A stretch of 64,000 bases of DNA from Burkholderiales bacterium RIFCSPHIGHO2_01_FULL_63_240 (GTDB lineage Bacteria > Pseudomonadota > Gammaproteobacteria > Burkholderiales > Burkholderiaceae_C): positions 1 to 64,000 of the forward strand of contig MERU01000006.1 of the NCBI GenBank assembly GCA_001770725.1. The letters run 5' to 3'. Under the pieces are notes generated by a model, which was not told where the DNA came from, made no database searches, and saw only the letters and a list, made by a program, of their open reading frames with translations. Shown one piece after another: positions 48,575 through 48,845 of the stretch. The position numbers were made by a program, and so were the translations under genes. Position 1 is the first letter of the stretch, and each line of letters starts with the position of its first letter.

Positions 48575-48637
48575 TCGGGGGGCGGTTCACCTCACGCACG
48601 GCGCCGTGGCGGCAGTGTGAAGGTTGGCAAAGTTGAT

Positions 48638-48660
48638 AAAAAAAACACCCCTCGCAGGGT
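48638..48660 (-). promoter_or_regulatory. Short hairpin plus T8 in the hemB leader
   Basis: On the minus strand, ACCCT-GCGA-GGGGT (5 bp including one G-T pair, with a GNRA-type loop) is followed by eight Ts, about 64 nt before the hemB start. The stem is weak, so it may be a leaky terminator or attenuator in the hemB 5' region, or simply an AT-rich promoter part. Confidence 0.3.
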
Positions 48661-48701
48661 TATTTCGGACAGGGGGGGCAGCCAAGCTTGAGCAACCTCC
48701 C

Positions 48702-48707
48702 TATAAT
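48702..48707 (+). promoter_or_regulatory. -10 element of candidate small RNA
   Basis: A perfect TATAAT lies in the hemB-hemJ gap, pointing away from hemB. No TTGACA-like hexamer sits at 16-18 bp. With a start about 7 nt downstream, the transcript would begin near 48714. Confidence 0.5.
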
Positions 48708-48713
48708 GGAAAG

Positions 48714-48827
48714 TGAATGATACGCCGCAAGGCCTCATTCCCTGCTTTTCCTCCCTGAGCAGGTGCCTTACGTGATGACAGCGTCAAGGCTTCACAGCCC
48801 CGGCTTGTGCCGGGGCTCTTTTTTTTT
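48714..48827 (+). ncRNA. Candidate small RNA between hemB and hemJ
   Basis: About 114 nt from the predicted start to a strong terminator, with no plausible ORF. Three stem-loops are visible: CCTGCT / AGCAGG (48741-48763) with an 11-nt loop TTTCCTCCCTG, GCCTT / AAGGC (48765-48790) with an inner ACG / CGT, and the terminator stem. AAGGC at 48729-48733 could compete for GCCTT, giving an alternative fold. The CCTCC of the first loop is complementary to a Shine-Dalgarno sequence, as in C-rich-loop regulatory RNAs. I do not recognise an Rfam family. It could also be a leader of hemJ mRNA, but the terminator argues for a separate RNA. Confidence 0.5.
48796..48827 (+). terminator. Strong intrinsic terminator before hemJ
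   Basis: AGCCCCGGC, TTGT loop, GCCGGGGCT, then C and nine Ts. A 9-bp perfect GC-rich stem. It ends the candidate small RNA and lies 18 nt before the hemJ ATG. Confidence 0.88.
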
Positions 48828-48834
48828 CTGTGCT

Positions 48835-48840
48835 CATAAT
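48835..48840 (+). promoter_or_regulatory. -10-like element 5 nt before hemJ (leaderless candidate)
   Basis: CATAAT (5/6) is followed by CCCCC and the hemJ ATG. The terminator T-tract is just upstream, so hemJ needs its own promoter, and this is the only candidate. No Shine-Dalgarno is present. Confidence 0.4.
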
Positions 48841-48845
48841 CCCCC

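Follow-up and report, generated by a model that had tools for sequence, protein, structure and literature searches.

By its match to the family model, the small RNA gene between hemB and hemJ in the window (the whole 64,000-nt stretch of DNA analyzed here) is the Aquabacterium member of the already catalogued family RF02837, anti-hemB, and not a new family. We consider it likely that anti-hemB of Aquabacterium acts through a loop that, aided by Hfq, blocks Shine-Dalgarno regions, and that the RNA is RpoE driven in most other families and read from a −10-box promoter here. What appears to be the new part of our findings is the candidate sigma-E-type promoter upstream of anti-hemB.

The anti-hemB gene of the window

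RF02837 matched positions 48739-48824 at 62.4 bits (cut-off, 49.5; E value, 3.6e-12 over the window), covering the full model (1-81 of 81), and was the only Rfam family above its cut-off across the whole window; the sequence-only reading had recognized no Rfam family, which no longer holds. The window copy has the traits of the family, i.e., a CCUCCCUGAG loop on a conserved stem followed by hairpin 2 and a terminator, and the gene is divergent from hemB, which lies on the opposite strand with its start codon at 48574. Two other families were rejected because the score stays below the cut-off: RF02278 (Betaproteobacteria toxic small RNA), with 15.6 of the 50 bits required, and RF00519 (suhB/mmgR), with 25.0 of 41 bits. 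The genome of the window has one RF02837 copy above the cut-off and two weak matches (29.2 and 28.2 bits) without a CCTCC loop. Because the closest named relatives of its hemJ are mostly from Aquabacterium (A. parvum, 91%), the lineage of the window is most likely Aquabacterium. The features are as follows.

47576..48574, minus strand: hemB, divergent neighbor (Pfam ALAD, E value 1.1e-138)
48702..48707, plus strand: −10 box TATAAT of the small RNA, from the sequence, without a −35 hexamer
48714..48827, plus strand: anti-hemB small RNA (RF02837), about 112-114 nt, both ends predicted
48715..48740, plus strand: 5' stem-loop at the predicted first nucleotides, from the fold
48741..48763, plus strand: hairpin 1, showing UUCCUCCCU in its apical loop, with CCTCC at 48750-48754
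48765..48790, plus strand: hairpin 2, with UGACAGC (48776-48782) in its loop, from the fold
48796..48827, plus strand: intrinsic terminator, with a stem at 48796-48817 (9 pairs, 8 of them G-C) and the loop UUGU
48846..49292, plus strand: hemJ, downstream neighbor (Pfam UPF0093, E value 3.7e-43)

The 5' end of the RNA was predicted from the spacing to the −10 box and the start of the 5' stem, and the 3' end from the terminator, in which the stem is followed by C and then by nine T at 48819-48827. The gene with the UPF0093 match, which we take to be hemJ, starts 18 nt past the end of this T run. Folded from 48714, the RNA forms four stem-loops at −51.4 kcal/mol (z score, −5.81), and 0 of 200 shuffled sequences were equally stable. 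The TATAAT, the hairpin at 48765-48790, and the GC-rich terminator stem with its nine Ts lie exactly where the sequence-only reading placed them, and the CCTCC loop that it described is present. The three hairpins that it counted are present, but the count itself has to be raised to four, because a further stem-loop, the 5' stem at 48715-48740, lies ahead of the CCUCC hairpin, and the competition that it saw between the hairpin at 48765-48790 and an upstream AAGGC is minor, the minimum free energy structure being identical to the centroid and making up 58% of the ensemble. Upstream of TATAAT, the best candidate for a −35 hexamer at a spacing of 15-19 nt matched at 3 of 6 positions, and a promoter scan returned none. 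A site resembling a terminator (5 pairs and a T run) lies at 48647-48660 on the minus strand, ahead of the start of hemB; it may be due to chance, since two such sites occur in the region compared with a shuffled mean of 1.0.

Anti-hemB of Burkholderia cenocepacia J2315 is ncS04, a 105-nt RNA identified by dRNA-seq and 3' RACE with a z score of −5.5, which appears on a northern figure and is stated by the authors to bind Hfq (PMC5688073). It is also listed with Hfq co-purification and is depicted with its neighbors in the orientations left, right, left, the downstream gene being convergent (PMC4603805). None of the seven conditions in Table 2 of PMC5688073 significantly altered the ncS04 level; the experiments on B. 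cenocepacia also included 20 min of membrane stress by SDS, and according to the same source, short stresses largely failed to induce the RNAs. Anti-hemB is listed for B. pseudomallei as well (PMC3521395), and the name was in print by 2012. The small RNAs known from B. cenocepacia and B. pertussis were undetected in the work of PMC7563307 according to its authors, and the main text of PMC2864571 does not mention hemB. In the literature searched, which covers few subscription journals, we found neither a function for anti-hemB nor a sigma-E promoter for anti-hemB/ncS04. The Aquabacterium member shares the loop, hairpin 2, the terminator, and the hemB neighbor with ncS04/RF02837 and differs in having UGACAGC in hairpin 2, a TATAAT promoter, another 5' stem sequence, and hemJ downstream. 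Another member (L033) has a 105-nt stretch with a folding energy of −52.0 kcal/mol, resembling the 105-nt ncS04 at −52.7 kcal/mol (PMC5688073).

Conservation and genomic neighborhood across Burkholderiales

RF02837 copies above the cut-off were present in 55 of 61 genomes, that of the window included, and in 196 of 300 genomes drawn from the order. Some relatives have many matches (10 in G018 and 5 in G254; loci L070, L083, L084, and L104-L107). In an alignment of 70 members selected for spread, 92.5% of the cells in the three helices are paired, compared with 86.1% when the 3' letters were shuffled and 31-60% when they were slid, and double changes occur at 13 pairs across these helices. The stem of hairpin 1 is paired in 99.8% of cells, and 20 of the 70 members show a double change between C-G and U-A at one of its pairs; the stem of hairpin 2 is paired in 87% of cells, with double changes in six of its eight pairs. 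Pairing of the 5' stem is preserved in relatives despite sequence change: in 46 sequences from other families, 242 of 274 cells are paired (row-shuffled mean, 203; maximum, 218), and in 24 sequences from the window group, 116 of 139 (row-shuffled mean, 103; maximum, 114), with 500 shuffles in each case. Covarying stems across Burkholderiales thus bear out the conservation of loop and stems in relatives on which the sequence-only reading had staked its candidate.

The counts over distinct loci rest on a regular expression for the hairpin that matched 163 of 199 loci. The 36 loci missed comprise two weak matches that are not family members (L002 and L003), four variants (L020, L088, L090, and L097), loci of a paralogue type (L102 and L105-L119), and 14 of 80 hemJ loci. 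The 163 matched loci gave 151 distinct upstream sequences, of which 67 come from other families and 84, with some paralogues among them, from the family of the window or the hemJ search; most of the 67 are better-scoring RF02837 matches and are therefore biased to good matches. CCTCCCTGAG is retained in 66 of the 67 distinct loci of other families and in 80 of 80 of the window group, all picked by an expression that already demands CCTCC and part of the stem.

hemB adjoins the RNA on the opposite strand in 52 of 57 loci, and the remaining 5 have no hemB within the flank. hemJ adjoins it in 19 of the 57, all 19 from the genus of the window; outside this genus, a search up to 1.5 kb from the RNA found hemJ at 0 of 38 loci. 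By regular expression, 66 of the 80 hemJ loci from the window's wider group have the hairpin. In nine loci inspected outside the genus, the RNA is adjoined by engB-like, cytochrome-c-like, or other ORFs; by motif, the neighbor in several of the nine is presumably the GTPase gene engB/ysxC, sometimes together with a cytochrome-c-like ORF. Because the neighbors vary, the haem genes do not define the RNA, and hemJ represents a local arrangement. The proposal in the sequence-only reading that haem or redox genes are targets, made on the basis of these neighbors, also fares poorly in terms of pairing: the duplex energies of the loop with the start regions of hemB and hemJ are −6.0 and −7.6 kcal/mol, respectively, compared with −16.4 kcal/mol for the strongest pairing among 90 ORFs of the window, all plain energies that leave accessibility out.

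Candidate promoter motifs upstream of anti-hemB and their distribution

When 5' flanks were aligned, many other-family loci proved to have GGAACTT and TCTNA boxes. GAAC(C/T)-N15-19-TC(T/A)NA occurs 20-80 nt before CCTCC in 52 of the 67 distinct other-family loci (44 with GGAAC), compared with 8 of 6,598 control windows drawn from these loci, while 15 of the 67 lack it by regular expression. Of the 52 motif-bearing loci, 51 have boxes separated by 17 or 18 nt, and 47 have a −10 element that ends 29-35 nt before CCTCC, a distance that would place the transcription start near the first bases of the 5' stem. One locus counted here (L050) has a motif that overlaps a TATATCAT box and may be spurious. 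The published sigma-E motif consists of GGAACTTTT at −35 and GTCAAA at −10 (PMC1804206); the −35 element of the relatives equals the start of GGAACTTTT, and their −10 element (TCTTA, TCTCA, TCTGA, or TCATA) fits GTCAAA only in part. In the window group, the regular expression matched 0 of 84 distinct loci, the window copy included; L198, which has GGGAACC and GACTCA by eye, belongs to the 84 and was unmatched. Based on motif and position, we infer that RpoE (sigma-E) drives anti-hemB in most other sampled families.

RpoE itself was detected above the cut-off in 25 of 26 genomes (the exception is G254), with scores of 252-263 bits in the family of the window versus 298-337 bits elsewhere. Genome-wide, the strict motif had 28 matches in 13 genomes and was rarer than its backwards control (55 matches); the corresponding numbers are 3 versus 2 in G041 and 1 versus 1 in the genome of the window. 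The anti-hemB promoter itself accounts for five of the 28, and one match lies 29 nt before an ORF that by eye is RpoH-like, while the remaining matches, as far as inspected, are mostly inside long open frames and were set aside. Given this rarity relative to the control, the motif is informative only by its position beside anti-hemB and rpoH. Within the 450 nt upstream of rpoE, it was found in 0 of 25 cases in its strict form and in 1 of 25 in a loose form.

The match before the RpoH-like ORF led us to search the region upstream of rpoH, where the regular expression matched in 17 of 28 genomes, some of the genus of the window included, compared with 2 of 728 control windows; most matches are those in which the −10 part overlaps a TTAGCACTC-like repeat, which may itself favor a match. 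This repeat belongs to a conserved inverted repeat, TTAGCACTC...GAGTGCTAA, that the sigma-E-type motif often overlaps (L259-L286) and that we take to be CIRCE-like. The overlap suggests a potential dual control of rpoH. In L261, L266, and L274, the match is farther from the model start, and the ORF there seems to begin farther upstream. In a post hoc count, GAAC(C/T) directly precedes the TTAGCACTC-like repeat in 23 of 28 cases, using an expression for the repeat that was tuned by eye and had no fair control, against a backdrop of 292 of 784 windows with any GAAC(C/T). At rpoH of the window's own genome, only this near match, GAAC(C/T) plus the repeat, is present.

The −35 type of most sampled other-family relatives is shared with MicA and RybB, which depend on sigma-E, and with ErsA, which depends on sigma-22. 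Pseudomonas ErsA is under sigma-22 and targets algC and oprD (PMC7565897). Unlike these RNAs, which have no Rfam match within the window, anti-hemB would use an apical C-rich loop as its seed, and its window copy lacks the sigma-E motif. Bordetella CT_532, a proposed MicA homologue, is likewise a betaproteobacterial Hfq-dependent RNA with outer-membrane-protein partners, but its level is unchanged without the anti-sigma factor RseA, so its authors regard it as apparently RpoE independent (PMC12235514).

In the window group, a −10-like hexamer is present in 77 of the 84 distinct loci (28 with TATAAT and 22 with TAAAGT, plus variants) and starts 48-49 nt before CCTCC in 66 of the 77; the hexamers were taken from a typed list and counted without a shuffled control. 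A C-rich terminator loop of the CUCCCCUU type occurs in 54 of 67 other-family loci but in a single one of 80 window-group loci. The loop of hairpin 2 holds UGACAGC in 72 of these 80 and in 0 of the 67; outside the window group, this sequence is conserved only in most of the group's paralogues. Judged from these distributions, the Aquabacterium lineage seems to have a −10-box promoter instead, to have lost the second C-rich loop, and to have gained the UGACAGC loop. In a quick hemB tree of 102 rows, from which odd-numbered hemJ-search loci and others were left out and in which the midpoint root serves for drawing only, the two promoter types cluster, with 10 label changes compared with a shuffled mean of approximately 32; 5 of the 10 are forced by starred branches. 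One large cluster of 53 rows, 52 of them without the motif, suggests that the sigma-E motif may have been lost a single time.

Most paralogues in other Aquabacterium genomes, with the stem CCGGC/GCCGG, keep UUUCCUCCCUGAG and GUGAUGACAGCG or close variants; that they keep both loops despite differing stems argues that both loops matter. This paralogue (L113-L116, L118, and L119; L385 and L386) is absent from the genome of the window as far as seen. Its DNA is 99.9% identical among six Aquabacterium genomes over the 3.1 kb compared, and ten ORFs scanned in the 20 kb around it in G012 include those for conjugation proteins of the TraC, TraV, TrbI, TraK, and TraE type and a P-type ATPase.

Proposed mode of action and alternative explanations

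The exposed anti-Shine-Dalgarno loop, the nine-U terminator, and the reported Hfq association of ncS04 together make blocking of ribosome sites the best reading. The loop, with Hfq, would pair with the Shine-Dalgarno region of selected mRNAs and thereby probably block their translation. In other families, transcription by RpoE would make the RNA an envelope-stress repressor like MicA, RybB, or ErsA; in the lineage of the window, the promoter would have turned into the −10-box type, and expression is therefore probably untied from envelope stress. The trans-acting regulator of the sequence-only reading stands as an independently terminated small RNA with an exposed anti-Shine-Dalgarno loop, well supported as a structure; as a mechanism, it is plausible, and our searches returned no convincing target.

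The whole-loop complement at a ribosome site, AGGGAGGAA-N3-10-ATG, occurs in the genome of the window only on the strand opposite the RNA gene, as its antisense; across 12 Aquabacterium genomes, it gave 6 other matches versus 4 for the backwards control. A 9-mer that fits the loop of other families had 78 matches in 24 genomes versus 14 for the backwards control, an excess that any strong ribosome site would produce, and a 7-mer loop complement had 20 matches besides the RNA itself in 4 Aquabacterium genomes versus 6 for the backwards control. The ORFs downstream of 50 loci with the 7-mer (29 loci with an ORF of at least 30 amino acids) formed no clear gene set; a depolymerase-like secreted protein and a response regulator recur by eye near the 7-mer, for which we make no claim as there was no recurrence control. 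GGGAGGAACTGGATG recurs in all four genomes, and its examined loci show no such ORF. With regard to repression of outer-membrane-protein mRNAs, these searches for loop complements at ribosome sites gave no convincing set of candidates. The results leave the proposed pairing three options: a match of less than the loop's length, a site elsewhere, or participation of the second loop.

The core of the loop is CCUCC, the anti-Shine-Dalgarno sequence of 16S rRNA. The loop could thus be a general decoy that mimics this end of the rRNA and tunes translation broadly without chosen mRNAs, which would fit the observation that the whole loop matches no ribosome site in the genome while the 7-mer matches many without a clear gene set. 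We regard this as unlikely, because the conserved stretch extends beyond the core (CCTCCCTGAG), and the window group has a second conserved loop, UGACAGC, that would be superfluous for a generic decoy. Moreover, the C/T-rich Hfq RNAs CT_433 and CT_521 of Bordetella, which may or may not belong to RF02837, have defined RIL-seq partners that share a Shine-Dalgarno-like motif; they differ from anti-hemB in their neighbors (bp3151/bp3152 and bp3747/rpoH, respectively), none of which is named hemB there (PMC12235514). RNAs of the RF02278 type (double-hairpin RNAs such as ncS27) are similarly short and terminator ended, with CU-rich unpaired stretches predicted over ribosome sites.

The other two alternatives concern the transcript itself. 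Since the terminator lies between TATAAT and hemJ, with 18 nt separating its T run from the start codon of hemJ, the RNA could be a hemJ 5' leader that starts at TATAAT and in which the hairpins and terminator act as an attenuator, with read-through expressing hemJ; the hairpin at 66 of 80 hemJ loci of the wider group would agree with this, and partial read-through in Aquabacterium is possible. As a full account, a leader is improbable, given that hemJ was found within 1.5 kb at none of the 38 loci outside the genus, with other ORFs adjoining the RNA in the nine loci inspected, that the downstream gene is convergent in B. cenocepacia, and that the predicted fold contains no antiterminator. It is very improbable that the functional RNA is on the opposite strand, as a structured hemB leader, a reading to which the name anti-hemB, the divergent hemB in 52 of 57 loci, and the good fold of the complement (z score, −4.30) would point. 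The plus strand folds better (z score, −5.81 versus −4.30) and carries both the promoters and the T run; there are 101 G-U cells compared with 23 A-C cells (33 compared with 23, weakly favoring the plus strand, without one nearly invariant pair; 48 compared with 24 in the 5' stem); the ncS04 transcript diverges from its left neighbor; and 5 of 57 loci have no hemB in the flank.

Beyond the preferred reading of a trans-acting RNA that blocks ribosome sites, a broader scenario is possible, if tentative, with a chance that we put close to even. Anti-hemB would be the order-wide sigma-E small RNA of Burkholderiales and the functional counterpart of MicA/RybB. It would have been freed from sigma-E on the branch of the window's family and family f32 (a family of large genomes that has the best RF02837 scores and is perhaps Burkholderia itself) and then re-tooled in the window's group, acquiring a −10-box promoter and the conserved UGACAGC loop, losing the C-rich loop of the terminator, and gaining a sibling copy on a conjugative element.

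What most deserves specialist attention in this work is that a putative sigma-E promoter is present in other families and lacking here. If true, a sigma-E promoter in most of the sampled families would give anti-hemB a testable function, and the envelope stress response of this group would gain an RpoE-driven small RNA, a role for which the apparently RpoE-independent CT_532 of Bordetella is the one candidate in the literature searched. The promoter switch in the lineage of the window would then be a natural case of a regulator that left a stress regulon while its loop was retained.
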